From contig NZ_CP004353.1 in the NCBI RefSeq assembly GCF_000550805.1, positions 1,240,001 to 1,304,000 on the forward strand: a DNA stretch of 64,000 nt, read 5' to 3'. The first letter of the stretch is position 1. Each line of letters opens with the position of its first letter. The DNA comes from Corynebacterium vitaeruminis DSM 20294. GTDB lineage: Bacteria > Actinomycetota > Actinomycetes > Mycobacteriales > Mycobacteriaceae. A model generated the notes under the pieces. That model searched no databases. It was given only the letters and a program-made list of their open reading frames with translations, and was not told the DNA's origin. Shown here one piece after another: positions 3,686 to 61,193 of this stretch. Made by a program: the position numbers and the translations under genes.

Positions 3686-3711
3686 CCGTAGGCGTCGTCA
3701 AGCAAATGCAA
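3686..3711 (+). repeat. Dispersed 20-bp repeat, copy 1
   Basis: Reads GTAGGCGTCGTCAAGCAAAT, one of 13 relatives of the core GGCGTCGACAAGCGAAAGC. It lies inside the longer reading frame upstream of the 3751 gene, which supports this stretch being non-coding and the later start. Confidence 0.6.
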
Positions 3712-3737
3712 CCTTTTCTTTCTCAGCCTACATTAAC

Positions 3738-3743
3738 TACGAT
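3738..3743 (+). promoter_or_regulatory. -10 box for a leaderless transcript of the 3751 gene
   Basis: TACGAT ends 7 bases before the GTG at 3751, the distance expected if transcription starts at the start codon itself. The region around it is AT-rich compared with the gene body. Confidence 0.5.
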
Positions 3744-3750
3744 AAAAATC

Positions 3751-4848
3751 GTGAAAAAGATTCGCACGCCACTCGGACGGCTCGCGCTGCTGCTGGCGGC
3801 GGGGCTCGCGCTGCTCGGCGGGCTCTACGCCGCGACCGTGCTGCTTGGCTACAACGGGCATCGGCCGCTTTCGAGCCTCGCCTCGAGCCACGGCCCGCTC
3901 ATGGTCTTCGGATTCGTCGGCGGCGCCATCGCCCTCGAGCGCGCCGTGGCGATCCGCCGGTGGTGGGGGTGGGGCGCGCCCATCGCAAGCGCCATTGCCG
4001 TCGCCGCCGTCTTCCTGCACGCGCCGGTGTGGGTTCCCGGCGCGGCGTGGGCAGTCTCGTTTGCGGTGCTCACGGGCGTCTACGCCGAGGCTTATCGACG
4101 CCAAGGCTCCCTCGCGCTCATCATCCAGGCGGCCGGATCCGTGGCGGCCGTCTTCGCCGCGCTCCGGTGGGCCGAGGCCGGAGTGTTTACCGACGCGCTG
4201 GGGCTGGCGATGATGTTCACCGTCGCGACGATCATCGGCGAGCGGGTGGAGCTCGCGCGGCTCTCGTTCAGCAGGGGACACCGCGAGGAGACCATCACCG
4301 TCCTCATCCTCGCCCTGCTCGCGGCGGCGGTGGTGGCGCCCGTGGGTGCGCTGGCCACCTCGATCGAGCGGGTGTTCGGCCTGCTCCTGGTCGCCGTCGC
4401 CGTCGCCAGCCTGCGCGCGGACGTGGCGCGAAACCTCGTGCGCACCTCGAAGCTGCCGCGGTTTTCCGCCGCCTGCATGCTGCTCGGCTACGGGTGGCTC
4501 GTCGTCGCAGGGCTGGCGATCGCCTTCTTCGGCCTGAGGACCACCGGATTCGCCTACGACGCCTGCGTGCACGGGGTCTTCCTCGGGTTCGTCATCTCCA
4601 TGATCTTTGCGCACGCGCCAATCATCCTCGGGGCCGTTATCAGGAAGAATCTCCCGTACCACCCCATCCTGTACGCCCCGGTCGTGCTGCTGCACGGCGG
4701 GCTGCTCATTCGTCTCGGGGCGGGCGACCTGCTGCGGCACGACGGCATCTGGCGCGCGGGGGCGATCGTGACCATCGTCGCGGTGCTGGGCTTCATAGCG
4801 ACGGGGATCTTTAGCGGAATAAGTAATCGCGGGAAGGGGAAGCGATGA
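3751..4848 (+). CDS. NnrS-like polytopic membrane protein
   Basis: A 365-residue integral membrane protein with about 12 hydrophobic segments. Histidines sit in or next to several of them: SSHGPLM, CVHGVFLGF, FAHAPII, PYHPILY and LLHGGLL. Size, topology and histidine pattern resemble the NnrS family, haem- and copper-containing proteins tied to nitric oxide stress, but the match is by pattern only. The GTG at 3751 is preferred: TACGAT lies at leaderless distance, while earlier starts (ATG 3673, ATG 3706) have no ribosome site and would translate AT-rich DNA carrying dispersed repeat copy 1. It overlaps the next gene by 4 bases (ATGA), so the two are translationally coupled. Likely controlled by the divergent ArnR-like regulator. 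Confidence 0.7.
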   Translation: MKKIRTPLGRLALLLAAGLALLGGLYAATVLLGYNGHRPLSSLASSHGPLMVFGFVGGAIALERAVAIRRWWGWGAPIASAIAVAAVFLHAPVWVPGAAWAVSFAVLTGVYAEAYRRQGSLALIIQAAGSVAAVFAALRWAEAGVFTDALGLAMMFTVATIIGERVELARLSFSRGHREETITVLILALLAAAVVAPVGALATSIERVFGLLLVAVAVASLRADVARNLVRTSKLPRFSAACMLLGYGWLVVAGLAIAFFGLRTTGFAYDACVHGVFLGFVISMIFAHAPIILGAVIRKNLPYHPILYAPVVLLHGGLLIRLGAGDLLRHDGIWRAGAIVTIVAVLGFIATGIFSGISNRGKGKR

Positions 4849-8238: not shown

Positions 8239-9960
8239 CTACGAGCGGTGGCCCGGACCCTTGAGCGCGATGACCTTGAAGTCGCCGTCCTTGACGTGCT
8301 GGCGTAGGTCGATCTTGTCGAACTTGCCCACGCTGGTCTTGTCGATCGAGTCGACGAACGCCCAGTACTCCGGCAGCATCCAGCTCGGGAAGGTCTCGCG
8401 CAGCTTGTCGCGCAGGCGCTCGGCGGTCTCGCGGTTCGGCTCGATGCCCTCCGCCAGCACGGTGACGGCCAGCGGGCGCTCGCCCCACTTCTTGTCCGGG
8501 TAGCCGATGACCGCGCACTCGACCACGACGGCCGCCGCCATGACCTCGTTTTCCAGCAGCGTGGAGTAGATCCACTCGCCGCCGGAGCGGATGACGTCGC
8601 GGGCGCGGTCGTGAATCGTGAGGAAGCCGTCCGAGGTCACCGAGCCCACGTCGCCGGTGCGCAGCCAGCCGTCGGCGGTGAACTGGTCGGGGGCGTCGTC
8701 GACCTCCTTGTTGCGGAACGTCGAGGCGGCACCGGCGCCCTCCTCGGCAGGCGAATGGTAGTAATTCGCGGTGACCCAGTTGCCGCGCACCTGGATCTCG
8801 CCCTGATTGCGGTCGGTGGAGGCGACGACCTCGCCGTCGTTGACCACCCGGTACTCGAGCGAGGCGGGGAAGCGCCCCTGGGAGACGCGGTAGTTCTGGC
8901 GCGCCTCGCCGCTGGCACCCGACGGCGGGCGGGCCACGGTGCCGATCGACAGGGTCTCGGTCATGCCCCACACGTGGACGATATCGACGCCGTAGCGCTC
9001 CTCCCACAGCTTGATGAGCACCGGAGGCACCGCGGATCCGCCGACGAAGATCTCCTGGAGGCTCATGCGCTCCGGCGGGTTGTGGATGTAGTGCACCATG
9101 AGCTGAATCCAGATGGTGGGCACGCCGTTGGCCACGCGCGGGTGGGCGTGGGCGATGATGCTCGCCAGCGACTGCGGCGAGAGGTCCGAGCCGGGAAAGA
9201 CCAGGGGAGTGCCCGACATGAACGCCGCCACCGGCACGCACCAGGACAGGATGTGATAGATCGGCACGCAGCACAGGAACGTCTGGCCGTGCATGATGGC
9301 GAGCGAGTCGGTGGTGCGCAGGTTCATGCACTGCAGGTAGATCGAGCGGTGCGAGTAGACCACGCCCTTCGGCGCGCCCGTCGTTCCGGTGGAGTAGCAC
9401 AGCGCCGCGGCGTGGGTCTCGGGGATGACCGGCCACGGGAAATCGGTGGAGCGGCCGTCGAGAAGCGCCTCGTAGGAATAGCAGGCGATGCCGTCCGGGA
9501 TGTAGTTCGCGGCGGCGCCGATGTCGTTGCGGCCGATGAACACCACCGCCCGCACGCTGGGACACCCGCCCGAAAGGATCGCGCCCAGCTGCTTGGCCAG
9601 TCGCTGGTCGGCGATGATGACCTCGTCCTCGGCGTGGTTTATGATGTGCCGGATCTGGTCGTTCATCAGCTGCTTGTTGAGCGGATTGAACACCGCTCCC
9701 ATGCACGAGATCGCAAACAGCGCCTCGAGGTGCTCCGCGCAGTTGTGCATGAAGGTTCCCACCCGCTTATCGCCGACGATGCCGAGCTCGTCGCGCAGCG
9801 CGTGCGCTAGGGCAGCGGCGCGCGCGCCGATCTCGTGATAGGTGGTTTGCTGCTGCTCGTCGCCCTCCCACGTGGTGGTTTTCGTGTCCCCGTGGATGGA
9901 TGATCCGTATGTCAAGATTCGTGACACGTTCAGCGGGAGGTCCTGCATCGTCGAAAGCAT
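8239..9960 (-). CDS. AMP-binding acyl-CoA ligase (FadD-like)
   Basis: A 573-residue member of the ANL superfamily that activates a carboxylic acid as acyl-AMP and usually transfers it to CoA. Visible motifs: the ATP P-loop YSTGTTGAPKGV, the WGMTET signature, the hinge WLRTGDVG...DRARDVIRSGGEW, and the C-terminal lysine region KTSVGKFDK. This fits medium- or long-chain acyl-CoA ligases; the substrate cannot be read from sequence. The ATG at 9958-9960 is preceded by TAAGCT at a 7-base distance, so the mRNA may be leaderless; a second ATG lies four codons on. Separated by 245 bp from the downstream symporter gene, so probably an independent unit. Confidence 0.85.
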   Translation of the reverse strand: MLSTMQDLPLNVSRILTYGSSIHGDTKTTTWEGDEQQQTTYHEIGARAAALAHALRDELGIVGDKRVGTFMHNCAEHLEALFAISCMGAVFNPLNKQLMNDQIRHIINHAEDEVIIADQRLAKQLGAILSGGCPSVRAVVFIGRNDIGAAANYIPDGIACYSYEALLDGRSTDFPWPVIPETHAAALCYSTGTTGAPKGVVYSHRSIYLQCMNLRTTDSLAIMHGQTFLCCVPIYHILSWCVPVAAFMSGTPLVFPGSDLSPQSLASIIAHAHPRVANGVPTIWIQLMVHYIHNPPERMSLQEIFVGGSAVPPVLIKLWEERYGVDIVHVWGMTETLSIGTVARPPSGASGEARQNYRVSQGRFPASLEYRVVNDGEVVASTDRNQGEIQVRGNWVTANYYHSPAEEGAGAASTFRNKEVDDAPDQFTADGWLRTGDVGSVTSDGFLTIHDRARDVIRSGGEWIYSTLLENEVMAAAVVVECAVIGYPDKKWGERPLAVTVLAEGIEPNRETAERLRDKLRETFPSWMLPEYWAFVDSIDKTSVGKFDKIDLRQHVKDGDFKVIALKGPGHRS

Positions 9961-10448
9961 GACTTTGAGCTTAACCCAGTCTTCAGGCTTTTTTCGCTTG
10001 TCGACGCCTACGGCCCCGGCCGCAATCTACGCGAAAAATCGCGCCGAGTTACGACAATGGCGCGAAGGTGGTCTACACTTGGGGGCGAACATTCGTTTGC
10101 GCGTTTGTGGAGTGCCCGTCAGGATGCATGTCGCACCGGGCACGAGCCAAACGATGTGCCCCTGCCCCCGCCCCGCTCCCTTTAGTGTGAAGCGGCTGCC
10201 TGCGGGTAGGGCGAAGGTTCACATCACTAGCGCTCGCGCTGCTCATCAGCGCGCAAGCGGCGCGTGGTTGCCAACAAAAAATGACGTCGATTCCTCGACA
10301 CTTTTCCATAAGGATGCTGCCAAGCTAGACGCTTTCATTCCCTCGTCTACATTCCCGCTCCCTTCTTTCCTGGAGCGAAGACGACAACCGGGGTGCCCCA
10401 CTGCGTGCATTCCTGGGTCGCTTGGTGCAAGCACACGAAAGGACATCT
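9961..10448. other. fadD-rho divergent intergenic region with long rho leader
   Basis: Holds dispersed repeat copy 2 close to the fadD-like gene, a candidate rho promoter (TTACGA 10049-10054, TACACT 10074-10079) and about 363 bases of untranslated rho leader. The leader is rich in C and contains few stable hairpins. No conserved protein was seen in it. Confidence 0.6.
9989..10013 (-). repeat. Dispersed 20-bp repeat, copy 2
   Basis: On the minus strand reads TAGGCGTCGACAAGCGAAAA, upstream of the fadD-like start and in the same orientation as that gene. Confidence 0.65.
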
Positions 10449-12458
10449 GTGACTGATACAGATAACGGCGCACAGCGTAATCTCGCTGCAATGCGTCTCC
10501 CCGAGCTGCGTAAGATCGCCTCCGACATGGGCCTCAAGGGCACCTCGGCGCTGCGCAAGGGTGACCTGATTGCCGCCATCTCCGGCGCGCAGGGGGCAGG
10601 TCAGGCTGAGAAGCCGGCAAAGAAGGTCGCGGCTCCCGCCGAGCCCGCGCAGACCGCCGACGCTCAGGAGGCTACTGAGGCTCCTGTGGCTACCGAGGCC
10701 GCCCCGAAGCAGGTCGAGCAGGAAGAAAAGGCGGAGAAGGCCGACAAGACTGAGGCCCCCGCCCCCGAGCAGGCCCCCGCCGAGGACAAGCAGCAGGAGG
10801 AGAAGCCGCGCCGCCGCCGCGCCGTGCGCCACGAGTCCGCCGAGCTCGCCACCGCCACCCACGAGGAGACCGTAGAGGCCGCGCAGGCGCCCGCGGAGCC
10901 CACGTCCCAGGAGGAGCCCGCCAAGGAGGAACCGAAGCAGGCCGAGTCCGGCGATGAGGAGACCCGCTACGAGTCCCGCTCCGCCGCCCGCCGCGCGCGC
11001 CGCAACCGTGCCCGCCGCGAGCAGCGTGAGGGCCGCGACGGACGCGACAACCGCGAGGGCCGCGACAACCGCCGCGAGCGCACCAACGAGGCTCCCGCCG
11101 AGCAGGCGCAGGATTCCGCTTCCCAGCCTGCGGAAAACGTCGAAAAGCGAGAAGGCGGCGAGCGCGAAGAGCGCAACAATAACAACAACCGCGAGGAGCG
11201 CGGCGGCCGACGCAACCGGCGCAACCGCCGCGGGCGTGACCGCGACCGCGACAATAACAACAACGAGGGCGGCAACGAGCAGCGCGAGGACGAGGCGCTG
11301 CAGGACATCGCCGGCATCCTCGACGTCGTGGACAACAACGTGGCGTTCGTGCGCACCTCCGGCTACCACGCCGGCCCCGCCGACGTCTACGTCAACACCC
11401 AGATGCTGCGCCGCTTCGGCCTGCGCGCGGGTGACGCGATCACCGGCCAGGTCCGCATGCACGGCGAGGCGCACCACTCCGGCCGCGGCCGCAACCGCCA
11501 GAAGTACAACCCGCTCGTGCGCGTGGACTCCGTCAACGGCATGACCGTGGAGGAAGCGAAGGCGCGCCCCGAGTTCGCCAAGCTCACCCCGCTGTACCCG
11601 AACCAGCGCCTGCGCCTGGAGACGGATCCGAAGATCCTCACCACCCGCGTCATCGACCTCATCATGCCGATCGGCAAGGGACAGCGCGCACTCATCGTCT
11701 CCCCGCCGAAGGCCGGTAAGACGACCATCCTGCAGAACATCGCCAACGCGATTTCTACGAACAACCCGGAGTGCTACCTCATGGTCGTGCTTGTCGACGA
11801 GCGCCCCGAAGAGGTCACCGACATGCAGCGCAGCGTGAAGGGCGAGGTCATCGCCTCCACCTTCGACCGCCCGCCGGCAGAGCACACCGCCGTGGCGGAG
11901 CTGGCCATCGAGCGTGCCAAGCGCCTGGTGGAGCAGGGCCAGGACGTGGTGATCCTGCTCGACTCGATCACCCGCCTGGGCCGCGCGTACAACAACTCCT
12001 CCCCGGCGTCCGGCCGCATCCTCTCCGGTGGTGTGGACTCCAACGCCCTGTACCCGCCGAAGCGCTTCCTCGGCGCCGCCCGTAACATCGAAAACGGCGG
12101 CTCGCTGACGATCATCGCCACCGCGATGGTCGAGACCGGCTCCGCCGGCGACACCGTCATCTTCGAGGAGTTCAAGGGCACCGGTAACGCCGAGCTCAAG
12201 CTGGATCGCAAGATCTCCGAGCGCCGCGTGTTCCCGGCCGTGGACGTCAACCCGTCCGGCACCCGCAAGGACGAGCTGCTACTCGCCCCTGAGGAGGCCA
12301 AGATCATGCACAAGCTGCGTCGCATCCTCTCCGCGCTTGACCCGCAGCAGGCCATCGACCTGCTCATCAAGCAGCTGAAGAAGACGAAGAGCAACGGCGA
12401 GTTCCTCATGCAGATCGCCAGCTCCCAGACGATGGCAGCAGTGTCCGAGGAGGACTAA
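10449..12458 (+). CDS. rho: Transcription termination factor Rho
   Basis: Hexameric RNA helicase that ends transcription at Rho-dependent sites. The 669-residue protein starts with the Rho N-domain (RLPELRKIASDMGLKGTS), followed by an actinobacterial insertion of about 250 residues rich in E, A, R, N and Q, then the RNA-binding fold and ATPase core with PPKAGKTTILQNI (Walker A), DERPEEVTD and LLDSITRLGRAYN. GTG 10449 is chosen because AAAGGA lies 6-7 bases upstream and the protein then matches relatives; an ATG at 10422 would add nine residues. First gene of rho-prfA-prmC; 6 bp separate it from prfA. The insertion contains a sequence (11136-11155) like the dispersed repeat. Confidence 0.97.
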   Translation: MTDTDNGAQRNLAAMRLPELRKIASDMGLKGTSALRKGDLIAAISGAQGAGQAEKPAKKVAAPAEPAQTADAQEATEAPVATEAAPKQVEQEEKAEKADKTEAPAPEQAPAEDKQQEEKPRRRRAVRHESAELATATHEETVEAAQAPAEPTSQEEPAKEEPKQAESGDEETRYESRSAARRARRNRARREQREGRDGRDNREGRDNRRERTNEAPAEQAQDSASQPAENVEKREGGEREERNNNNNREERGGRRNRRNRRGRDRDRDNNNNEGGNEQREDEALQDIAGILDVVDNNVAFVRTSGYHAGPADVYVNTQMLRRFGLRAGDAITGQVRMHGEAHHSGRGRNRQKYNPLVRVDSVNGMTVEEAKARPEFAKLTPLYPNQRLRLETDPKILTTRVIDLIMPIGKGQRALIVSPPKAGKTTILQNIANAISTNNPECYLMVVLVDERPEEVTDMQRSVKGEVIASTFDRPPAEHTAVAELAIERAKRLVEQGQDVVILLDSITRLGRAYNNSSPASGRILSGGVDSNALYPPKRFLGAARNIENGGSLTIIATAMVETGSAGDTVIFEEFKGTGNAELKLDRKISERRVFPAVDVNPSGTRKDELLLAPEEAKIMHKLRRILSALDPQQAIDLLIKQLKKTKSNGEFLMQIASSQTMAAVSEED

Positions 12459-13608: not shown

Positions 13609-14430
13609 ATGACCGACACCGTGGGCCAGGCGCTCGCCGACGCCACGACCAGGCTCGCCGCCGCCGGGGTGGACAGCGCGGCGCACGACGCACGGGCGCT
13701 GGCCGCCTTCGCGCTTGGCTGCGAACCCCTCGAGGTGGGCCTGCGCCGCGGCGAGCCGATGCCGGAAACGTTTTCCGGGCTCGTAGCCCGTCGCGAGGCG
13801 CGGGAGCCACTCCAGCACATCCTGGGCAGTGCGTGGTTCGGCCCGCTGGAGCTAAAGGTGGGCCCGGGGGTGTTCATCCCGCGGCCGGAGACCGAGGTGC
13901 TCGCGGACTGGGCGGTTCGCACCGCGCCAGGCGGGAAAATCAAGGTTCTGGACCTGTGTTCCGGGTCCGGTGCGCTCGCCGCCTACGTCGCTCACTACCT
14001 CCCCGAGGCCGAGATCACCGCCGTGGAGCTGTCCTCCGGGGCGCTTGCGTTCACCCGCGCCAACCTCCCGGACCGCGTGCGTCTCCTCCAAGCCGACGCC
14101 GCCGACCCGACGCTGCTCGCCGGGGAGCGCTTCGACCTCGTCGTGAGCAACCCCCCGTACGTCCCCGAGAGCCCCGATCTTGCCCCCGAGGTGTACTTCG
14201 ACCCCCACGAGGCGGTCTTCTCCGGTGCCTCCGGCATGGAGCTTATCGACGCCATGGCGCCGAACCTCTTCCGCCTCCTCGCACCCGGCGGGTTGGTCGG
14301 CGTGGAGCACGACGACACCACCAGCGAGCTGGTGCAGGCCGCCCTGCGCGGGGCCGGGCTCACCGAGGTCCGCCCGATGGCGGATCTCACCGGCCGGGAC
14401 CGCTTCGTGATCGGGCGGCGGGCGCTATAG
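13609..14430 (+). CDS. prmC: Release factor glutamine methyltransferase
   Basis: Methylates the glutamine of the GGQ motif in release factors using S-adenosylmethionine. The 273-residue protein has an N-terminal helical substrate domain (QHILGSAWFGPLEL), SAM motif I VLDLCSGSGALA and the catalytic NPPY within VVSNPPYVPES. AGGAGG lies about 7 bases before ATG 13609, which settles the start. Cotranscribed with prfA unless the hairpin at 13549 stops transcription. Confidence 0.95.
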   Translation: MTDTVGQALADATTRLAAAGVDSAAHDARALAAFALGCEPLEVGLRRGEPMPETFSGLVARREAREPLQHILGSAWFGPLELKVGPGVFIPRPETEVLADWAVRTAPGGKIKVLDLCSGSGALAAYVAHYLPEAEITAVELSSGALAFTRANLPDRVRLLQADAADPTLLAGERFDLVVSNPPYVPESPDLAPEVYFDPHEAVFSGASGMELIDAMAPNLFRLLAPGGLVGVEHDDTTSELVQAALRGAGLTEVRPMADLTGRDRFVIGRRAL

Positions 14431-14449
14431 ACGTCGACAAGCGAAAGCG
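14431..14449 (+). repeat. Dispersed 20-bp repeat, copy 3
   Basis: ACGTCGACAAGCGAAAGCG begins at the base after the prmC stop codon and points toward the next gene. Confidence 0.65.
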
Positions 14450-19252: not shown

Positions 19253-20071
19253 ATGCACGCAGCGAGCCGCGAAGCACTAGCGACTGTTTCGTCCAACCTC
19301 GATACCGCACTGTCTGAGGGGACGAACGCTGTAGCCGTTGGCGCACAGACTGGCACCGAGCTTTTCGACGTCGTCGACTCCCTCGACGGTGATCGTCAGC
19401 TGCGCATCGCGGTTGCGGATGCCTCCGCAGCCCCCGAGCAGCGTGCTGGCCTGGTGTCTGCTGTGTTTGGCAATAAGGTGTCTCAGTCCACGCTGGAGGT
19501 CATCATCTCCGCAGCGCGTCAGACCTGGTCGAGCCCGCGCGAGTTCCGCGCAGGCCTGATCGAGCTTGGCCGCCGCGCCCTGCTGCGCAGCGCAGAGAAC
19601 CAGGGTCAGCTTGCACAGGTGGAAGACGAGCTCTTCAGCCTGTCCCGCCTCCTTGAAAAGGAGCCAAGCTTGACTTTGCTTCTCGACGATCGCAGCACCG
19701 ATGGCAACCGCAAGCGCGAACTGCTGGCGAAGGTGCTGTACGGGAAGGTCACCTCGGTGACCGAAGCCCTTGCACTCCAGGTCATTGGCCGCCGCGAGAA
19801 GAACTCCATCGACGACATCAACGCCCTCTCCAAGCAGGCAGCTGCTCTGCAGGGTCGCGAGGTTGCCGAGGTCGTCTCCGCAGCGCAGCTGAATGACGGA
19901 CAGAAGCAGGCATTGGCACAGAAGCTAGAGCGAATTTATGGTCGCGAGATGAACATCCACTCTGAGGTTGATCCCAGCCTCCTCGGTGGCATGGTCATCC
20001 GTGTCGGCGATGAAGTTATCGACGGATCCACCTCGGGCAAGCTCGAGCGTCTCCGCACGACCCTCGTCTGA
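19253..20071 (+). CDS. atpH: ATP synthase F1 subunit delta
   Basis: Connects the stator stalk to the top of the F1 head. The 272-residue protein is longer than the E. coli subunit (about 177) and typical of corynebacteria. The conserved C-terminal part includes ERIYGREMNIHSEVDPSLLGGMVIRVGDEVIDGS (split here: GREMNIHSEVDP, then LLGGMVIRVGD). ATG 19253 is preferred because AGGAAAG lies 8 bases upstream; a GTG at 19244 overlapping the atpF stop would add three residues. Confidence 0.94.
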   Translation: MHAASREALATVSSNLDTALSEGTNAVAVGAQTGTELFDVVDSLDGDRQLRIAVADASAAPEQRAGLVSAVFGNKVSQSTLEVIISAARQTWSSPREFRAGLIELGRRALLRSAENQGQLAQVEDELFSLSRLLEKEPSLTLLLDDRSTDGNRKRELLAKVLYGKVTSVTEALALQVIGRREKNSIDDINALSKQAAALQGREVAEVVSAAQLNDGQKQALAQKLERIYGREMNIHSEVDPSLLGGMVIRVGDEVIDGSTSGKLERLRTTLV

Positions 20072-26383: not shown

Positions 26384-26410
26384 CCGTAGGCGTCGACAAG
26401 CGGGCAAAAG
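26384..26410 (+). repeat. Dispersed 20-bp repeat, copy 4
   Basis: Begins at the base after the stop of the CPGC gene: GTAGGCGTCGACAAGCGGGC followed by AAAAG. It directly precedes the minus-strand terminator of mce. Confidence 0.65.
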
Positions 26411-26980: not shown

Positions 26981-27003
26981 GCTTTTTTCGCTTTTCGACG
27001 TTC
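26981..27003 (-). repeat. Dispersed 20-bp repeat, copy 5
   Basis: Minus strand AACGTCGAAAAGCGAAAAAA: GTCGAA replaces GTCGAC. Lies between divergent mce and the 27042 gene, pointing toward mce. Confidence 0.5.
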
Positions 27004-30760: not shown

Positions 30761-30784
30761 CTTTTCGCTTGTCGACGCCTTCGG
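30761..30784 (-). repeat. Dispersed 20-bp repeat, copy 6
   Basis: Minus strand AAGGCGTCGACAAGCGAAAA, in the glgE-glgB gap, same orientation as both genes. Confidence 0.65.
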
Positions 30785-33843: not shown

Positions 33844-33867
33844 CCGTCGACAAGCGAATGCAAAAGG
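33844..33867 (+). repeat. Dispersed 20-bp repeat, copy 7
   Basis: CCGTCGACAAGCGAATGCAA; its A-rich tail runs into AAAAGGTGG, the ribosome site of the Nudix gene. Confidence 0.65.
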
Positions 33868-34705: not shown

Positions 34706-35947
34706 TTGTCCTTCAGCACCGACGAACTGTCCTTCTTCCGCGCCCACACCGATGAGGTCGGGGCCGTTTGCGCCCGCCTCGGGCTGACCAAAGCCACAGC
34801 GCTCGCCGACGCTGCCCTCGCCCGCGAGGAGTTCGGCGAGTACGGCCGCGCCGTCGTGGAGCTCGCGCACGCTAGGCGTTCGGCTCTGGGAAAGCTGCCC
34901 GGAAACTGGTGGGCATGCCACGAGTCCGCGCAGCAGGCCACCCCGATGATCGTGGCCCACCTGCGAGCCCGCCGCATCGCGCAGGCGGCTGCTGCGCTCG
35001 TCTTCGACGCGACCTGCTCGATCGGCACCGAGGGGCACGCGCTGCGCTCGCTCGGGATCCCGTACGCAGGCGGCGACCTCGACGCCTCGCGGCTTGCCAT
35101 GGCCAGGCACAACCTCGGCGATAACGCGTGGCTTCTGCGTGCCGACGCGCTGAAGCCTGCGATCGTAGGCTGCGACGTGCTCGTCGCGGATCCCGCCCGC
35201 CGCTCCGGCGGACGACGCATAGTCAAGCCGGAGGACCTGATTCCGCCGCTTCCCGACGTCATTGACGCGTGGGGCGCACGCTCGGAGCTGGCCATCAAGT
35301 GCGCGCCGGGGCTCGACTTTAGCGAGTGGGACGGGCTCGTGAGCCTCGTGAGCGTCGACGGGGGAGTCAAGGAGGCGTGCCTGTACAGCCCGGGGCTCGC
35401 CGGCGGTACGCGTCGAGAAGCGCTCATTGCCAAGCGCGTCGCCGAGGGCGAGGCAGGCGGCATCGACCAGCGCGCGATCGAGGTGCCGGGCATAGCCGAG
35501 CGCTACCTGGTGGACCGCATCGACGACCAACTGGACGACGACGTGGACGTCACCCCGCCGCGGCGCTACATCGTGGACCCGGACGGCGCCGTCGTGCGCG
35601 CCGGGCTCGTGCGGCACTACGCGCACCGCGAGGGGCTTTCGATGCTGGATCCGCACATCGCCTACCTCACCGGCGACCGCCTGCCGCAGGGGACGTCGGG
35701 ATTTCCATTCATCGAGATGGTCCCTGTGAAGAAGCTGAAGGCGGCGCTTCGGGCGCACGGGTGCGGAAGCCTCGAGATCCTCGTGCGCGGCGTCGACGTG
35801 GACCCCGACGCGCTGCGAAAGAAGCTGGGTCTCAAGGGGAAACGGCAGATGTCCGTGGTCATCGCGCGCATCGGCACGCAGGCGCAGGCGTTCATCTGCG
35901 GCAAGCGGGTCACAGCCAACGAGGCGCGCGAGGCGACAGCGGAGTAG
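34706..35947 (+). CDS. SAM-dependent methyltransferase-like protein with THUMP-like C-terminal domain
   Basis: A 413-residue conserved actinobacterial protein. A Rossmann core contains VFDATCSIGTEGHAL (SAM motif I), GGDLDASRLAMARHN (motif II) and VLVADPARRSGGRR in the place of the catalytic motif. The C-terminal 90 residues (SLEILVRGVDVDPDALRKKL) look like the THUMP-like domain of this family. RNA methylation is the obvious guess, but no target is known. The start is a TTG at 34706 with only a weak upstream site; it is 28 bp after the Nudix stop. Confidence 0.75.
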   Translation: MSFSTDELSFFRAHTDEVGAVCARLGLTKATALADAALAREEFGEYGRAVVELAHARRSALGKLPGNWWACHESAQQATPMIVAHLRARRIAQAAAALVFDATCSIGTEGHALRSLGIPYAGGDLDASRLAMARHNLGDNAWLLRADALKPAIVGCDVLVADPARRSGGRRIVKPEDLIPPLPDVIDAWGARSELAIKCAPGLDFSEWDGLVSLVSVDGGVKEACLYSPGLAGGTRREALIAKRVAEGEAGGIDQRAIEVPGIAERYLVDRIDDQLDDDVDVTPPRRYIVDPDGAVVRAGLVRHYAHREGLSMLDPHIAYLTGDRLPQGTSGFPFIEMVPVKKLKAALRAHGCGSLEILVRGVDVDPDALRKKLGLKGKRQMSVVIARIGTQAQAFICGKRVTANEAREATAE

Positions 35948-36905: not shown

Positions 36906-37859
36906 TTGTCTCACGCATACGTTCTGGTCGAGCACGCCAACGGCCGAGTCCTTCCTGCAACCGGTGAGCTGATCACCGCCGCCCGCGTCTTCGGTGACGT
37001 CATGGCCGTGGTCGTGGGCGCGCCCGGCGTCGAGGCGCCGCTCGCCCCGACCCTGGGCGAGCTGGGCGCGAGCGTCGTCTACGCCGCCACCGCCGCCGAC
37101 GCCGACAAGCGCGTCGTCCTCCCCGAGACCGACGCCCTCCACGCCGTTGCCGCGCAGAACCCGGCGCCGATCCTCATCGACGCGGGTGCCCACGGCAACG
37201 AGATCGCGGGCCGCCTCGCGGCACGTCTTTCCTCCGGCGTTCTCTGCGACGTCGTCGGCGTCAACGCCGATCGCAGCGCCCAGATGTCCATCTTCGGCGA
37301 CACCATCGAGGTCAGCGCCAGCGTCGGCGGCGCGAGCCCCATCTACACGCTGCGCCCGGGCGCGGTGGAGGCCACGCCGCAGCCGGTCACCCCGCAGGTG
37401 CTCGCCTTCGAGCTGCCCGCCGCCAGCGCCAAGGACGTCACCGTCACCTCCTTCACCCCTGCTGCAAAGGGCGATCGCCCGGACCTGGCGCAGGCGAAGG
37501 TCGTGGTCTCCGGTGGCCGCGGCGTGGAGAGCGCCGAGAACTTCGCCTCCGTGGTCGAGCCGCTTGCCGACGCCCTTGGCGGCGCGGTCGGCGCGACCCG
37601 CGACGCCGTGGATCTGGGATACTACGCCCCGCAGTTCCAGGTCGGACAGACCGGCGTGACCGTCTCCCCGGACCTCTACATCGGCCTGGGCATCTCTGGC
37701 GCCATCCAGCACATCTCGGGCATGCAGACCTCGAAGAAGATCGTCGTGATCAACAACGACGAGGACGCGCCGTTCTTCCAGATCGCCGACCTCGGCGTCG
37801 TGGGCGACCTCCACGAGATCGTCCCGCAGCTGGTCCAGGAGATCAACAACCGCAAGTAG
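36906..37859 (+). CDS. etfA: Electron transfer flavoprotein subunit alpha
   Basis: FAD-binding partner of EtfB. The 317-residue protein ends with the FAD domain: [46 protein letters not shown] and [22 protein letters not shown]. The start is a TTG at 36906 with AGGA about 8 bases upstream; it gives the family N-terminus [12 protein letters not shown] and the usual length. A strong terminator follows. Confidence 0.95.
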
Positions 37860-40582: not shown

Positions 40583-43126
40583 ATGACTAACCAAGCTAAC
40601 GCCGTGGAGGAAAAGCGCCGCGTCGTGGTGCCGGAGAAACCGACGCCCGAGGAGATCGCAGAGTTTCGCAATCGGTGGATCGAGCCGGTGTGGGGGGTGG
40701 TTCGCCACGCCCCGGTGAGCTTCGCCCTCCTCGCGCTCATGTGGGTGCTCTTCGTCGTCGGCGGGGACAGCTACGAGGAGCGCCGCCAGGCATTCGGCCT
40801 CCACGGGCATAGCAATTTCTTCAGCCTCAAGCTCTTGGCCTCCGGCGCGACGGTGGGAAACCTCCGCGGGATGCTGCTGGCCAGCCTCGCGGTGGTGGCG
40901 CTCGCGGTCCCCGCCGAGCGGCTCATGGGCTCGCGCCGGTTCGGGGTGGTGGCGGTCGCCGCGCAGGTGATCGTCGCGCCGCTGGTGTTCGCCATCGCAA
41001 AGCTCATGGTGCTCCTGCCCATCCACCAATGGACGGACGAGCTGGCCAACGAGCGCTTCCTCAGCCCCGTCACCTGGATCGCCGCCACCCTGGCGTTTTC
41101 CTCGGCCTACGCGCCCCTGTTGTGGCGCCGCCGCATCCGGATCTTCCTCGTCAGCCTGTCGGTCACGCTGGTCGTGTACTCGGGCTCGCTGTCCGACGTC
41201 GCGTTCCTCACCGCGTCGATCCTCGGCGCCGTGAGCGGCTCGCTCATCCACTCCCGCGCAACGCTTTCGCCGCCAAAGACCTACTCGGTTCGCGAGGCGC
41301 GCGTTATCATCGCCATCATCGTGGGCGCGGTGGCGCTGGGCCCGATCATCGCGTTCATCAACCCGCACGCCGCGGGCCCGCTCTCGGGCATCTCTCGGCT
41401 CGTGTGGGAGCCGGCGATGAGCGCCCACGAGGTCGGCACGATCTGTCGCGTCGACCCAACCTCGGATTCCTGTCGCGAGGCGCTCGCGGTGTCCCGCCAG
41501 GACGGAATCGGGCCGTTCGTCGCTAACGCCATGCCGCTTGCGGTCCAGCTCGTCTTCCTGCTGGGCCTGGTTCGCGGCCGCCGGTTTGCGTGGGTGGGGT
41601 TGCTCGTCATTCAGTTCCTCACCGGCCTCGGGATCTGGCTGGAGGCGGACATTCTTCAGGACGAGTTCGGAACCTCCGTCACCGGTTCCATCTCGCTGAC
41701 CACGGCGGTGCTGCCGTGGCTGTTTACGATGGTGGTGCTGCTGTGGCATCGCAGGCGTTTCCAGGTGCGCATTTCCGCCGCGCGCGTGCGCCGCTTCTGG
41801 TTGCAGTCCGCCGGCGCGCTCGCGGTTACCGCGGCGCTGTGGATGCTCGGTGGTTACGCGCTGCGCAGTAGTTACTCGCCGCACCTCACGTGGTTTTTGC
41901 TTGCCGACGAGCTGCCCATGCGTTATCTGCCCCCGCCGCTGGCGGCCGCCGCCGGGGTGGAGTTCTTGCCCCGGACCTCGCTGGCCTGGATCCTCCTGGA
42001 GTGGCCGGGCTCGCTGTTCTGGATCTACGTGGTGTGGAAGCTGTGGAAGCTGCTCATGACCACCCCGGACGAGACCGCGCTGGCGCACCGGGAGAAGGCT
42101 CGCGAGCTGCTCAAGAAGGGCAGCGGCGACCACCTGTCGTGGATGAGCGTGTGGAACGGCAACCGCTACTGGTTCGACGAGGAGGCTCCGGGAAGCTACG
42201 TCGCCTATCGCGTGAAAAACGGCATCGCCCTGACCCTCGGCGGGCCGATCTGCGCTCCGGGGCACGCGCCGAGTGACATCGCCGATCGTTTCGAGCGCTT
42301 CGTCGATCACCAGGGCTGGCAGACGGCCTGGTACTCGGTCGACGAGGACTTCGCCGAGTCCCGCTGCGAGCGCGGCTGGCACAAGCAGCACGTCGCCGAG
42401 GAGTCGGTCCTCGACACCGCGCTGTGCGAGTTCAAGGGAAAGAAGTTCCAAAACGTCCGCACCGCGCGCAACCACGCAAAGAAGGAGGGCATCGAGGCGG
42501 TGTGGACCACCTGGCAGGAGGCCACCCCGGTGCTGCGCGAGAAGATGGTCATGCTGTCCGAGCAGTGGCTCAACGACAAGGCGCTGCCCGAAATGGGGTT
42601 CACCCTGGGGACGATCTCCGAGCTGAAGGACCGCGACACCCGCATCCTGCTCGCCCTCGACGCCGAGGGGCGGCTGCACGGCATGACCAGCTGGCTGCCC
42701 GCCTACAAGGACGGCCGCATCGACGGCCTCGTGCTCGACTTCATGCGCCGCGACTCGACGGGCTTCCGCCCGGTCATCGAGTTCCTTATCTCCGAGGGCA
42801 TGCTGGAGGCCAAGCGGCTCGGGTACGAGTGGATCTCGCTCTCGGGCGCCCCGCTGGCGCGCAGCGAGAACAACGAGCCCACGATCCTCGATAACGCGCT
42901 CGACAAGGTCGGCGAGCAGATGGAGCCGCTCTACGGCTTCCGCTCGCTGGCGGCGTCCAAGAACAAGTTCCAGCCCGTCCACCACGCCTGGTACATGTGC
43001 TACAAGGACGAGCTCGCGCTGCCCAGCATCGGGCTGGCGGTCTGCGGCTGCTACCTGCCGGAGCTGAGGCCCCGCGACGCGGTCAGTGTCGTGAGGACGT
43101 GGGCGAAGGCCCAGCAGGGCGAGTAA
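40583..43126 (+). CDS. DUF2156 aminoacyl-phosphatidylglycerol synthase-like membrane protein
   Basis: An 847-residue protein: about 13 membrane helices (45-480), then a soluble double-GNAT domain (about 490-830) with SWMSVWNGNRYWFDE, GGPICAPG, KFQNVRTARNHAKKEG and FMRRDSTGFRP. The layout is that of MprF/LysX-like enzymes that move an amino acid from tRNA to a lipid. In C. glutamicum the relative makes alanyl-phosphatidylglycerol. The first six helices look rhomboid-like in arrangement without a clear catalytic Ser/His pair. 95 bp after the esterase gene, same strand. AGGTGA lies about 10 bases before the ATG. Confidence 0.85.
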   Translation: MTNQANAVEEKRRVVVPEKPTPEEIAEFRNRWIEPVWGVVRHAPVSFALLALMWVLFVVGGDSYEERRQAFGLHGHSNFFSLKLLASGATVGNLRGMLLASLAVVALAVPAERLMGSRRFGVVAVAAQVIVAPLVFAIAKLMVLLPIHQWTDELANERFLSPVTWIAATLAFSSAYAPLLWRRRIRIFLVSLSVTLVVYSGSLSDVAFLTASILGAVSGSLIHSRATLSPPKTYSVREARVIIAIIVGAVALGPIIAFINPHAAGPLSGISRLVWEPAMSAHEVGTICRVDPTSDSCREALAVSRQDGIGPFVANAMPLAVQLVFLLGLVRGRRFAWVGLLVIQFLTGLGIWLEADILQDEFGTSVTGSISLTTAVLPWLFTMVVLLWHRRRFQVRISAARVRRFWLQSAGALAVTAALWMLGGYALRSSYSPHLTWFLLADELPMRYLPPPLAAAAGVEFLPRTSLAWILLEWPGSLFWIYVVWKLWKLLMTTPDETALAHREKARELLKKGSGDHLSWMSVWNGNRYWFDEEAPGSYVAYRVKNGIALTLGGPICAPGHAPSDIADRFERFVDHQGWQTAWYSVDEDFAESRCERGWHKQHVAEESVLDTALCEFKGKKFQNVRTARNHAKKEGIEAVWTTWQEATPVLREKMVMLSEQWLNDKALPEMGFTLGTISELKDRDTRILLALDAEGRLHGMTSWLPAYKDGRIDGLVLDFMRRDSTGFRPVIEFLISEGMLEAKRLGYEWISLSGAPLARSENNEPTILDNALDKVGEQMEPLYGFRSLAASKNKFQPVHHAWYMCYKDELALPSIGLAVCGCYLPELRPRDAVSVVRTWAKAQQGE

Positions 43127-45465: not shown

Positions 45466-45484
45466 GCGTCGGCAAGCGAGAAAG
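45466..45484 (+). repeat. Dispersed 20-bp repeat, copy 8
   Basis: GCGTCGGCAAGCGAGAAAG, leading into the ribosome site GAGGGAAAG of mnmA. Confidence 0.5.
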
Positions 45485-46591: not shown

Positions 46592-46616
46592 CGCTTTTCG
46601 CTTGTCGACGCGTACC
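46592..46616 (-). repeat. Dispersed 20-bp repeat, copy 9
   Basis: Minus strand ACGCGTCGACAAGCGAAAAG, starting at the base after the mnmA stop. It is opposite in orientation to both neighbouring genes. Confidence 0.65.
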
Positions 46617-48364: not shown

Positions 48365-50665
<2,301 letters not shown>

Positions 50666-55067: not shown

Positions 55068-55090
55068 GGGCGTCGAAAAGCAAAAACGGG
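55068..55090 (+). repeat. Dispersed 20-bp repeat, copy 11
   Basis: GGGCGTCGAAAAGCAAAAAC, 13-35 bases upstream of the MFS start and in its orientation. Confidence 0.45.
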
Positions 55091-57789: not shown

Positions 57790-58710
57790 ATGGCGCGCAA
57801 CGAGCAGCAAACAGGCACTATGCAAGGCGGCGGGGCTCCGGAAGCGGGGCGAGGCCCCGGCAAGGGCCGGAAGATGGTGGCAAGGCCCGCCACCCTGCGT
57901 GCCCGCACCGAGATCGGAAAGAACATGGTGCGGCTGAGCTTCGACGCGCCCGCGATGGTGGGAACCGATCCGGTGTCCGAGGCCCCCACCGACCGGTACG
58001 TGAAGCTGCTGTTTATCCCGGAGGGCGCAGGCTACGAGTGGCCTTTCGACCTGCGGGAGATCAAGGAAGCCGTCCCCGGCGAGCTGCAGCCGGTGCGGCG
58101 AACCTACACCTTGCGCAACGTGGACCCGGCGGCAGGCACCTTTGACATCGACTTCTACCAGCACGGCGACACCGGGCTGGCCAGTCGTTGGGCAGCCACG
58201 GCGCGGATCGGCGAGACGATCGCCTACCTGGGCCCGGGTGGGGCCTGGCGCCCGGCGCCGGGGTACTCCCACTTCGTTCTCGCGGGCGACGAGTCGGCCG
58301 CGCCCGCCATCGCGGAGGCTATGACTCAGCTGCCAGCAGGCGCCAGCGCGCAGGTCTTCATCGAGATCGCCGATGCAGGTAGCCGCATTCGCTTGTCGAC
58401 GCCCAGCTGCGATCTGGAACAGCTCCCCGAGGGGGTGCAGCTCGAGTGGGTCGAGCGAGGCGATGCCGTGCCGGGTGCGAAGCTCGTGGAAAAGCTGCGC
58501 GGGTCCAGCTTCCCCGATGTTCCCACCAGCTGGTTCGTGCACGGTGTGGCGGAAATGGTCAAGGATGTCCGGCGCCTGTTGTTCGTGGAGCGATCGGTGG
58601 CGAAGCAGGACGCGTCGATCTCCGGCTACTGGCGGCTGGGCGCGACCGAGGACGTCTGGCAGGCCACCAAGCGGGAACTGCTTGCCGAGTGGGAGGCGCA
58701 GGAAAAATAA
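57790..58710 (+). CDS. Siderophore-interacting protein (ferric-siderophore reductase, ViuB-like)
   Basis: Cytosolic flavoprotein that reduces ferric siderophores to release iron. 306 residues: FAD-binding domain with RRTYTLRNVDP and FYQHGDTGLASRW, then an NAD(P)H domain with AGDESAAPAIAEAM and a C-terminal WRLGATEDVWQ helix. GAGGGAGAGA precedes the ATG. A DtxR box upstream ties it to iron starvation. Codons at 58385-58404 coincide with a copy of the dispersed repeat, encoding RIRLSTP in a surface-loop position. Confidence 0.92.
   Translation: MARNEQQTGTMQGGGAPEAGRGPGKGRKMVARPATLRARTEIGKNMVRLSFDAPAMVGTDPVSEAPTDRYVKLLFIPEGAGYEWPFDLREIKEAVPGELQPVRRTYTLRNVDPAAGTFDIDFYQHGDTGLASRWAATARIGETIAYLGPGGAWRPAPGYSHFVLAGDESAAPAIAEAMTQLPAGASAQVFIEIADAGSRIRLSTPSCDLEQLPEGVQLEWVERGDAVPGAKLVEKLRGSSFPDVPTSWFVHGVAEMVKDVRRLLFVERSVAKQDASISGYWRLGATEDVWQATKRELLAEWEAQEK
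58385..58404 (-). repeat. Dispersed 20-bp repeat, copy 12 (inside a coding sequence)
   Basis: GCATTCGCTTGTCGACGCCC on the plus strand. Its reverse complement shares 17 contiguous bases with copy 7. This is the only clear copy inside a conserved gene; it stays in frame. Confidence 0.6.
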
Positions 58711-58712
58711 CT

Positions 58713-59091: not shown

Positions 59092-59330
59092 ACCTTGCGA
59101 TGGTAGTCGCCACTATCGCGGAGGGGCCGGGATTGTGGCTGTGGACATTCTGGCGGACGGGTGGGAGTTTCCGGGGAGCCTCCGGGCGGGGGTGCCTACT
59201 CGGGTGCAAAAGCGGGCATGCGACGCCTTTTCGGCCCTTCCCGGGAGAGAGTCGGTGGCATTTGTCACTACTTGCAATCTCACAGTGCCCGAACGGGCAT
59301 GGGCGAAACTGGGGCGCTAAACTTGGCTTC

Positions 59331-60359
59331 ATGCGACTTGCAACTTTGACCTCTGGTGGTGACTGCCCAGGCCTCAACGCCGTTATCCGTGGCATCGTTC
59401 GTACGTGTTCCGAGTATGGCTCGACTGTCGTCGGCTACGAGGACGGCTGGGTCGGCCTCATGGAAGACAAGCGGATCCAGCTGTATGACGACGAGAACAT
59501 CGACCGCATCCTGCTGCGCGGCGGCACGATCCTCGGCACCGGTCGCCTGCACCCCGATAAGTTCAAGAGCGGCCTCGACCGGATCAAGGCCAACCTCGAG
59601 GACGCTGGCATCGACGCGCTCATCCCGATCGGCGGCGAGGGCACCCTGAAGGGCGCCCAGTGGCTCTCGGACAACGGCATCCCCGTCGTCGGCGTGCCTA
59701 AGACCATCGACAACGACGTCAACGGCACCGACTATACCTTTGGTTTCGACACCGCGGTCTCCGTGGCCACCGACGCCATCGACCGCCTCCACACCACGGC
59801 GGAGTCCCACAACCGCGTCATGATCGTCGAGGTCATGGGCCGCCACGTGGGCTGGATCGCCCTGCACGCCGGCATGGCTGGCGGCGCGCACTACATCGTC
59901 ATCCCGGAGCAGCCCTTCGACATCGCGGAGATCTGCAAGAAGATGGAGCGCCGCTTCCAGATGGGCGAGAAGTACGGCATCATCGTCGTCGCCGAGGGCG
60001 CGCTGCCCGAGGAGGGCACGATGGAGTTCGCCGAGGGCGGCGTGGACCAGTTCGGCCACCAGACCTTCAACGGCATCGGCCAGGTCATCGGCGACGAGAT
60101 CAAGAAGCGCCTCGGCCACGACGTGCGCACCTCGGTGCTCGGCCACATCCAGCGCGGCGGCACCCCGACCGCCTTCGACCGCGTGCTGGCCACCCGCTAC
60201 GGCGTTCACGCCGCGCGCGCCTGCCACACCGGCGACTTCGGCAAGATGGTCGCCCTCCACGGCGAGCACATCGAGCTCATCTCCTTGGAAGAGGCAGTCG
60301 GCTCGCTGAAGGTGGTCCCGGAGGGCCGCTACCGCACCGCACGTGCGCTGTTCGGCTAA
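59331..60359 (+). CDS. pfkA: 6-phosphofructokinase
   Basis: Phosphorylates fructose-6-phosphate in glycolysis. 342 residues with [46 protein letters not shown] and [13 protein letters not shown]. Glycine after GGE (GGEG) fits ATP-dependent members; pyrophosphate enzymes have Asp there. ATG 59331 gives the family N-terminus and lies 7 bases after TAAACT (59318-59323), so the mRNA is probably leaderless; the frame open from 59082 is rejected. Confidence 0.96.
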
Positions 60360-60373
60360 AGCCTGAGCTTTTT

Positions 60374-60982
60374 CTAGGCGCACGCCTGCTGGCATTCACC
60401 GGTGGGCGTGCGCCTTTGTGCTTCCACGGCCTCGATCTGCTCCGAGATGCAGCCAGCGAGATCGCTGGGGCGGAGGAACTCCTCGACGGGGTCGAGCCTT
60501 CGAAGCGCCTGAGCAATCGCGCCGTCGGCGCGGCGTGCCTCCATGTCGGTGAGCCCGTGCATCCGCGGGGCGACGGGGAAAAGCTTCTCGAACGCGAGCA
60601 AGCCTTCCTCTACCGCGTAGTCGGCGATCAGGGGGAAGCGCAGCAGCGCCTTGGCCACGAGGTAGTGCAGCTGCACGTACCCATCCAGGGGGTCGTCCAG
60701 GAGGATCGGACCGTCGTACTCCGGGCGCCCTTCGGCGGCGAGCCTTAGCCAATGGCGCCATTCCTGGCGATGGGACTCGCGCTCCTCGAGCCAGAGCCGG
60801 ACGTCGTCGGCGAGCTCGCCGTAGGCGCCGGGGAGCCCGGAATGGTCGAGCAACGCGCCGTTCATGAAGGCGGAGACGAGGCGCCGGACGAGCAGCTGCT
60901 CGCGGTAGGCGGCGGGGTAGCAGCCGCGCTCGGAGAGGAAGACGGTCAGCGGCGGGGTGGGCAGAAAGGACAGCGGGTACAC
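60374..60982 (-). CDS. Conserved hypothetical protein
   Basis: A 202-residue protein with no family that I recognise. Readable landmarks: YPLSFLPTPPLTVFLSERG, then DDVRLWLEERESHRQEWRHWL and a late DPVEEFLRPSDL. Soluble, acidic, few cysteines except near the end (GECQQACA). GTG 60980-60982 is chosen because AAGGAG lies 6 bases upstream. Its last codons form one arm of the hairpin behind pfkA. Confidence 0.6.
   Translation of the reverse strand: MYPLSFLPTPPLTVFLSERGCYPAAYREQLLVRRLVSAFMNGALLDHSGLPGAYGELADDVRLWLEERESHRQEWRHWLRLAAEGRPEYDGPILLDDPLDGYVQLHYLVAKALLRFPLIADYAVEEGLLAFEKLFPVAPRMHGLTDMEARRADGAIAQALRRLDPVEEFLRPSDLAGCISEQIEAVEAQRRTPTGECQQACA
60376..60418 (+). terminator. Hairpin downstream of pfkA
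   Basis: 11-bp perfect stem AGGCGCACGCC/GGCGTGCGCCT (60376-60386 with 60405-60415) followed by TTG. It overlaps the end of the convergent gene. A smaller AAAGC/GCTTTTT hairpin lies just before it (60358-60373). Confidence 0.6.
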
Positions 60983-61170
60983 GGTGACTCCTTGGTCGCT
61001 CGGTGGTGTGTTCCCCTCGCACGCTACGGCGGCATACGCGGCGTGTCTCGGCCGGGCGCGGGCAGGGCCCGAAATCTGTGGATGGTTCCACTGGGTGAGA
61101 CGGCAGGGGAGAGTTATCCACAGAAACCGGCCCGATTCCCCTTTTCCGCGGGCTCGCGGGATGGGTTTTT

Positions 61171-61193
61171 CGTCGATAAGCAAATGCGAAAGC
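61171..61193 (+). repeat. Dispersed 20-bp repeat, copy 13
   Basis: CGTCGATAAGCAAATGCGAA then AGC, upstream of gatB and in its orientation. Confidence 0.5.

Follow-up and report, generated by a model that had tools for sequence, protein, structure and literature searches.

The window, i.e., the whole stretch of 64,000 nucleotides analyzed here, held a dispersed repeat whose conserved core was the asymmetric 11-mer CGTCG(A/G)NAAGC (CGTCGRNAAGC). The core was found there in 25 exact copies, 14 of them counted within called genes (gene boundaries came from a custom codon-model caller, not from an annotation pipeline). Outside genes, CGTCGACAAGC occurred at 9996..10006 (- strand, with full flanks GCCGTAGG..GAAAAAAGC), 30767..30777 (-) and 33845..33855 (+), CGTCGAAAAGC at 26990..27000 (-) and 55071..55081 (+), CGTCGATAAGC at 61171..61181 (+), and CGTCGGCAAGC at 45467..45477 (+), 5' of the gene at 45497-46591. 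Three other CGTCGACAAGC copies were located next to gene ends: at 14432..14442 (+), immediately 3' of the stop at 14430; at 26391..26401 (+), in a convergent gap where the repeat, flanked by CCGTAGG, began past the stop at 26383; and at 46600..46610 (-), antisense and shortly past the stop at 46591. Two intergenic variants with one mismatch and a CCGTAGG flank were also present, CGTCGTCAAGC at 3693..3703 (+) and CGTTGGAAAGC at 48416..48426 (+).

Within genes, CGTCGACAAGC was found at 1193..1203 (-), 11789..11799 (-) and 58391..58401 (-, gene 57874-58710), CGTCGATAAGC at 4090..4100 (-) and 14241..14251 (-), and CGTCGAGAAGC at 9456..9466 (+), 19678..19688 (-), 33479..33489 (-) and 35411..35421 (+). 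Genes also held CGTCGAAAAGC at 11138..11148 (+, gene 10491-12458) and 19360..19370 (-), CGTCGGGAAGC at 35248..35258 (-), and CGTCGGCAAGC at 37562..37572 (-), 41899..41909 (-) and 50632..50642 (-, close to the 3' end of the gene at 48482-50665). All 13 places at which an earlier note had located the repeat did hold it, 11 as the exact core and two (3693 and 48416) one base off, and three of these repeats began right after a stop codon as described (at 14431, 26384 and 46592, behind gene ends at 14430, 26383 and 46591). Its count of 12 intergenic copies among the 13 partly reflected the choice of copies caught by eye, given the share of the 25 exact copies that lies in genes: the enrichment in gaps was borne out in a 464-kb sample (the window plus 20 stretches at even intervals), while an essentially extragenic location was not.

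CGTCGRNAAGC was the most over-represented word of this genome, with 1,305 copies against 40 for the reversed-word control, in line with the hundreds per genome that had been projected. Both strands were used evenly (668/637). The 15-mer CGTCGANAAGCRAAA had 190 exact matches in the genome (0 for its reversed control), the 19-mer with at most three mismatches matched nine times in the window (0.07 expected from shuffles), and the 464-kb sample contained 215 exact cores for 7.7 expected. With core, 15-mer and 19-mer counts all far above the reversed and shuffled controls, the repeat is a genuine dispersed family. Both outcomes named in the earlier note as refuting it thus failed to appear, since gaps were enriched as well. 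The word was sharply specific: CGTCGACAAGC alone occurred 89 times for 1.5 expected, and 27 of its 33 one-base variants had just 0-5 copies. Among aligned copies, the core GC was followed by R and then by A in 77 of 79. The conserved stretch covered about 11-20 bases, with CCGTAGG weakly shared; of the flanks proposed earlier, the A-rich tail was retained, the conserved part was shorter than thought and the left side was reduced to a weak TAG.

In the 464-kb sample, core density was 0.34/kb within genes, 1.03/kb in tandem gaps, 2.14/kb in convergent gaps and 0.98/kb in divergent ones, so that promoter-bearing divergent gaps were no richer than other gap types. Genes held 131 of the 215 exact copies, in all six orientation-phase classes. 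The proposal that orientation follows the downstream gene was not upheld in this sample, where 28 copies in tandem gaps pointed the same way as the genes and 21 the other way, and polarity relative to replication was absent (52/59 on one chromosome half, 57/47 on the other). Close pairs were mostly inverted (14 of 16), the CGTCG ends facing each other in 11.

For this genome (G000) and eight others, the sampled stretches were spaced at roughly regular intervals; densities for G026, G062 and G063 are not unbiased since their stretches were partly picked around known matches. Gap enrichment was not general: copies were denser in genes than in gaps in G016 (42 in 73 kb, 2 in 26 kb) and in G009 (27 in 77 kb, 6 in 24 kb). 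In 10 of the 12 genomes sampled, in-gene copies were more numerous than in any of 20 synonymous-codon shuffles, indicating a bias that acts on DNA and not on protein. Coding of a Walker-B-like peptide (LLLDEP) adds in-gene matches in some phases and was rejected as the cause, the excess surviving the synonymous-codon shuffle. Spacing, measured by 5-kb bins and spacing variation, was more even in G000 than in 300 of 300 random placements and than for 108 of 108 similarly frequent words. In the multi-genome comparison, from which L002 and L003 were excluded, G063 was even by spacing variation only, G062 was not significant and G026 was not even.

Copies within genes aligned without gaps in 335 of 406 pairs with homologs, these being BLAST matches from loci of other genomes (identity 35% or more), possibly including paralogs. 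Judging from these alignments, copies arise by substitution, not by insertion.

The prophage region of this genome held no copy in 60 kb for about 27 expected, and 15 prophage loci of 13 other genomes held seven for 68.2 expected, where expectations were computed from the mean density of each genome (its size rounded in some cases) and prophage edges were unmapped. This set comprised G000 and the 13 further tag-rich genomes whose portal match exceeded the family cut-off; G019 and G207 (tag-rich, portal below the cut-off) and tag-poor genomes stood outside it. In the 60-kb region of G000, families were sought only for ten open frames in its central 20 kb, and the portal was located in the first 20 kb. 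Codon-atypical genes were not tag-poor (the two most atypical sixths had 0.39 and 0.55/kb, the remaining four 0.26-0.31), so that depletion in foreign DNA found no backing in composition alone.

The repeat was not peculiar to this genome. Among 201 Corynebacterium genomes, 139 held 194-1,753 core copies, with strands balanced in sum (55,269 forward, 55,287 reverse); in the tag-rich G175 the count was 4.6 times the control, i.e., below fivefold. The core word did not stand out in 120 genomes beyond Corynebacterium. Related lineages favored variant words, or dialects, the words distinguished being CGTCGACAAGC, CGTCGAAAAGC, CGTCGATAAGC, CGTCGGCAAGC and GGTGGCGTCGRA. A further 55 of the 201 genomes had counts at or near background, and six of these clearly carried another word, GGTGGCGTCGRA; the search for other words covered G010 and G030 among low-count genomes, and G030 yielded no alternative.

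Competence genes were nearly universal: ComEC was found in 200 and DprA in all of the 201 genomes, a Tad-locus ATPase above the cut-off in 192, and ComEA and Tad minor-pilin-like proteins were present. As ComEC, DprA and the Tad ATPase were about equally common in the 55 low-count genomes and in the rest, loss of ComEC, TadA or DprA was uninformative as a cause of tag-poverty. The com and tad loci were alike in tag-rich and tag-poor genomes (six and five com loci, five and four tad loci, respectively), with no consistent gene difference, so no gene seen there tracks the tag, and no receptor candidate stood out at the loci compared. The sole genome without a ComEC match (G232, 90% complete) was tag-poor, as was G226, which had a stop within its ComEC match among the matches listed. 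Nothing was drawn from these two cases because three tag-rich genomes (G001, G144, G146) each had a pair of weaker ComEC matches, as a split gene might give; tags would persist beyond a recent loss of ComEC.

Taken together, the evidence points to tags for DNA uptake rather than to a regulatory or mobile repeat. We consider it probable, at roughly 65%, that CGTCGRNAAGC belongs to a DNA uptake sequence system similar to the DUS (DNA uptake sequence) of Neisseria and the USS (uptake signal sequence) of Haemophilus in its working and unrelated to them in sequence. Several traits of this functional class were observed here: an over-represented asymmetric word in both orientations without replication polarity, in genes and in gaps, with inverted pairs, dialects and scarcity in prophages. 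Recognition by the uptake machinery, a receptor and natural transformability of the cells are what we infer beyond these observations. A surface receptor, probably ComEA or a component of the Tad/Flp-type pilus, would bind tagged double-stranded DNA, ComEC would pass a single strand into the cell, and DprA and RecA would recombine it. Since uptake and recombination would favor tagged fragments, tags would build up by substitution on either strand wherever sequence constraint permits, up to a spacing at which most fragments of a few kilobases hold at least one. Phage DNA, entering by a different route, would stay tagless, and drift in receptor specificity would lead a lineage to rewrite its genome to a new dialect.

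To our knowledge, uptake words that tag self DNA have been reported so far in two Gram-negative families only; we know of no ComP, the DUS receptor, in Corynebacterium and of no uptake sequence in the actinobacterium Micrococcus luteus. The literature searched, outside which lay supplements, preprints and most subscription papers, contained no report of a corynebacterial uptake word or repeat and none of natural transformability of these corynebacteria; of 128 papers in which one of six 11-mers occurred, the 30 titles inspected seem to have no bearing on the subject. Like the word described here, the Neisseriaceae DUS is the top over-represented word, lies in gaps and genes, commonly forms inverted pairs (PMC3630211), has dialects and is reduced in islands, where its density is described as often falling drastically (PMC7371117). 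The inner cores reported for the DUS and the Pasteurellaceae USS are 5'-CTG-3' and 5'-GCGG-3', respectively (PMC12616744); by contrast, neither CGTCGRNAAGC nor its complement contains CTG, and the required GCGG is missing from the corynebacterial word. The USS resembles it in number, H. influenzae having about 1,300 (PMC5217627), and, as far as G000 is concerned, in spacing, the USS being described as abundant and relatively even (PMC7811141). The Apl-USS, ACAAGCGGT, shares seven of nine letters with ACAAGCG of the window dialect (PMC12616744), a likeness that is probably due to chance, because GCGG is missing and other Corynebacterium dialects fix CGTCG..AAGC. The DUS works with a type IVa pilus, whereas Corynebacterium is Gram-positive with a Tad-type pilus, for which an uptake role is proposed here; Pasteurellaceae likewise differ in phylum and pilus. 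A parallel in machinery is Micrococcus luteus, whose reported competence genes include, as in Corynebacterium, Tad ATPases and ComEA/ComEC (PMC6667448).

The main rival, possible but rather unlikely, is a site for a chromosome-organizing protein (nucleoid-associated or condensin-loading), with regularly spaced anchors and a drifting specificity that yields dialects. More than 1,000 evenly spaced copies in G000, lying in genes and gaps alike, would suit such a protein, and both the absence from recently arrived prophage DNA and the lineage dialects could also be produced if sites for any DNA-binding protein built up slowly while the protein evolved along with them. However, no replichore bias was found, and strongly asymmetric, strand-balanced sites are unusual for dimeric architectural proteins. 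A word near background in 55 of 201 species would also be odd for core chromosome biology, and coding changes at hundreds of places would be easier to reach by biased recombination.

A self mark read by a nuclease or defense system, either Chi-like protection (AdnAB/RecBCD-type) or a restriction-like device degrading untagged DNA, appears improbable. It would account for an abundant, genus-specific word nearly absent from prophages, and Chi and KOPS are likewise short, over-represented and species-specific. Yet Chi-type signals and KOPS are polar relative to replication, and the lack of polarity here (52/59, 57/47) ruled out identity with either; moreover, Chi words are shorter than the 11-base core, and prophages persist without the word.

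Very little speaks for a regulatory element of a large regulon, be it a promoter or regulator box or a piece of a 5' leader or terminator. Some copies do stand directly before ribosome sites or after stops, and inverted pairs could form stem-loops, but the word lay mostly in genes (131 of 215, all six classes) and ignored gene direction. Promoter, leader and terminator roles were ruled out by gap-type densities, orientation and in-gene copies, and a transcription factor regulon by the lack of promoter-region enrichment (0.98/kb in divergent gaps). Nor do we know of any corynebacterial regulator box that matches the core word, in agreement with the earlier note. A mobile or REP/MITE-like repeat can be practically discounted: its dispersal, gap enrichment, weak common CCGTAGG flanks and inverted pairs would fit, but only about 11-20 bases were conserved, most one-base variants were at background with no decay series, and the ungapped alignment of 335 of 406 in-gene homolog pairs ruled out transposition.

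Under the uptake-sequence reading, a somewhat bolder claim, which is still favored with slightly more reserve, is that this would be the third independently evolved uptake-sequence system and the first in a Gram-positive, actinobacterial lineage, working through Tad pili in most Corynebacterium, with dialects acting as barriers to recombination between species. If this is true, self-tagging of DNA evolved at least three times, once with a different pilus, and many corynebacteria would be naturally transformable now or would have been recently. An added tag would then offer a tool for their genetics, the word would help to mark out foreign DNA, and the dialects would forecast which species swap genes.

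The repeat that an earlier note had described from thirteen places in the window was present at all thirteen, and the 19-mer proposed there matched nine places in the window at three or fewer mismatches (0.07 expected from shuffles). The Corynebacterium vitaeruminis genome contained 190 exact copies of the 15-mer CGTCGANAAGCRAAA, 97 on one strand and 93 on the other, and none of its reversed control. Aligned into a profile, 79 copies carrying no more than one mismatch displayed a strict core, CGTCG(A)nAAGC, followed by R and AAA; the T-A/G-G at positions -4 to -2 was weak, and the right end was rich in A. In a 464-kb sample of this genome (G000; the window and 20 evenly spaced 20-kb stretches), CGTCGACAAGC had 89 copies where a third-order Markov model predicted 1.5. 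Six of its 33 one-base variants were also common, namely G at position 5 (25 copies), A, G and T at position 6 (23, 16 and 27) and C and G at position 7 (12 each; positions counted from 0), and the remaining 27 had 0 to 5 copies. The degenerate core CGTCGRNAAGC reached 215 copies in the sample (7.7 expected); across the whole genome it had 1,305, and the reversed pattern had 40. By enrichment score it was the top-ranked word, in gaps and overall, in samples of G000 and three other genomes (G026, G062, G063). The word CTGTGGATAAC, which we take to resemble a DnaA box, was also over-represented in G000 gaps.

An even draw from a larger group gave 201 Corynebacterium genomes. Of these, 139 were tag-rich, with at least 150 copies of the core (194 to 1,753, median 797); counts were intermediate in seven (68 to 107) and below 65 in 55. 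In every tag-rich genome except G175 (4.6 times) the count was fivefold or more that of the reversed control, and the 139 together carried 55,269 and 55,287 copies on the two strands (controls 4,060). None of 120 other genomes of the order (49 other genera, 14 genomes in the same family) reached five times its control, the highest ratios being about 2.4 as read by eye. The 15-mer was counted in the genomes of eight public loci, with 26 copies in Corynebacterium silvaticum and none in three of the eight. In searches of open-licence journal papers, no description of the core word was found among those listed.

The letters separating CGTCG from AAGC varied among 12 sampled genomes, and most of those with a listed dialect held several forms. 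The main letters were AC in G000, AA in G026 and G062, AA and AC in G063, GC in G188 (nearest to G000 in a 30-genome tree built from one gene, support 91/78), AT in G009 and G016, AT and AC in G197, and AG in G205, which also used CGTCGATGAG. G187 was weak for the core, with 13 copies in 100 kb of sample and 371 in the genome as a whole. In G010 the core was at background and GTGGCGTCG(A/G)A, purine-rich on its right side, occurred instead. Genome-wide, GGTGGCGTCGRA was high in six genomes, all within the 55 low-count ones (G015 145, G010 129, G167 125, G104 68, G033 45, G180 44; no control above 5; next highest G032, 31). G030 had neither the core nor GGTGGCGTCGRA, and no other strong word. 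Separate repeats were seen in the samples of G026 (L101-L120; an intergenic family, e.g. CTCCGCGCATG and GGAGGTAGTTC, with 12-13 gap copies over a 400-kb sample), G063 (L003, L121-L132; intergenic GTGTGCTGC, present 23 times in gaps totalling 38 kb) and G205 (L212-L216; TCCATAAGCG, 9 copies in 100 kb, 0.04 expected).

In the G000 sample, 131 of the 215 core copies lay in called genes (0.34/kb) and 80 between two called genes; the remaining four were not placed in such a gap. Density was 1.03/kb in tandem gaps (49 copies), 2.14/kb in convergent gaps (13) and 0.98/kb in divergent gaps (18). Tandem-gap copies ran along the gene direction 28 times and against it 21 times, and strand counts in the two chromosome halves were 52/59 and 57/47. 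Fourteen of 16 core pairs less than 120 bases apart were inverted, with the CGTCG ends facing in 11 of the 14. Among gap copies within one mismatch of the 15-mer that opposed both flanking genes, 10 of 16 ended 1-5 bases from the neighbour's stop. The gap preference is not general across genomes. It disappears in G009, whose gaps held 6 copies in 24 kb and whose genes held 27 in 77 kb, and it is inverted in G016, with 2 copies in 26 kb of gaps and 42 in 73 kb of genes.

In-gene copies in G000 occupied all six orientation-phase classes, chiefly antisense phase 2 (80) and sense phase 2 (26; other four together, 25). Because the core in some phases encodes Walker-B-like peptides, synonymous codons were exchanged across the genes of each sample in 20 shuffles, keeping proteins and codon usage. 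G000 held 131 in-gene copies against a shuffle mean of 16.7 (maximum 22), and excesses were also found in G026 (131 against 5.2), G063 (105, 3.4), G062 (36, 1.7), G016 (42, 3.2), G009 (27, 2.4), G188 (24, 2.1), G197 (22, 1.7), G205 (20, 1.8) and G187 (8, 1.1); samples of G030 and G010 had no in-gene copies. The in-gene copies are thus an excess at the DNA level. In G026, very long adjoining genes (L116, L117) shared the word at the same near-start place, encoding RRKAK/RRQAK, and core copies were therefore clustered in that genome.

The in-gene copies of eleven com loci and nine tad loci (L217-L236) numbered 79, and for 64 of them a homolog from another genome was alignable. For 59 of the 64, at least one alignment was gap-free across the copy and four residues on each side, and 335 of 406 homolog pairs were ungapped over the copies. 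An origin by insertion is disfavoured by these mostly ungapped alignments, which indicate that the copies originate by substitution.

Spacing in G000, with the prophage stretch excluded, was compared with 300 random placements of equal gene and gap copy numbers. The variance-to-mean ratio in 5-kb bins was 0.65 against 1.11 (sd 0.19), with no placement as low (2/300 in 2-kb bins and 1/300 in 4-kb bins). Spacings had a coefficient of variation of 0.84 (random 1.03), and seven core-free gaps exceeded 5 kb (random 14); short spacings were not avoided in G000. None of 108 8-mers of similar frequency was equally even. Spacing variation was as low in 1/300 placements for G063; evenness was not significant in G062 and absent in G026.

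One evenly spaced G000 stretch without a core copy (L086) encoded an antirepressor, a D5-type primase, a phage-type DNA polymerase and further phage-like proteins, with a portal gene about 2 kb before it. The 60 kb around it held no core copy (about 27 expected from the genome mean), and portal-centred stretches of 13 other tag-rich genomes (15 loci) held 7 against 68.2 expected. Codon-atypical genes in general were not depleted of the core. The prophage region, at 725-785 kb (L237, L086, L238) and beyond the window, also carried an S-adenosylmethionine synthetase adjoining a DNA methylase.

ComEC was found in 200 of the 201 Corynebacterium genomes, DprA in all 201 and the Tad-locus ATPase above cut-off in 192. 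Being near-universal, they permit an uptake reading without proving it and do not account for the low-count genomes. In G000, ComEA adjoins ComEC (L217), and the Tad locus (L228) encodes a CpaE/Ssd-like protein, TadA, two T2SSF proteins, a DUF4244 protein, an Rv3654c-type protein and a TadE-type minor pilin matching below the family cut-off. The G000 ComEC (L217:7502-8911) was called at 470 aa and matched chiefly the N-terminal/Competence part of family models. Corresponding competence genes are described for another actinobacterium, Micrococcus luteus, in the available part of PMC6667448.

As far as the available portions of the cited accounts go, the core resembles the DNA uptake sequence (DUS) of Neisseriaceae and the uptake signal sequence (USS) of Pasteurellaceae in most respects (PMC3630211, PMC7371117, PMC7811141, PMC12616744): it is asymmetric, neutral to strand and replication and independent of promoters, builds up through substitution within genes as well as gaps, has an even spacing in G000, forms inverted pairs, is nearly missing in prophage regions and has lineage dialects. 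The main rival, under which the same word would be the site of a chromosome-organising protein, is considered unlikely. The core word probably marks a system working like an uptake sequence, a reading to which we give a probability of roughly 0.65. Such tags are known only from Neisseriaceae and Pasteurellaceae, according to the part of PMC12616744 available, and the Corynebacterium core, lacking the required inner cores of DUS and USS, stands outside both sequence families.
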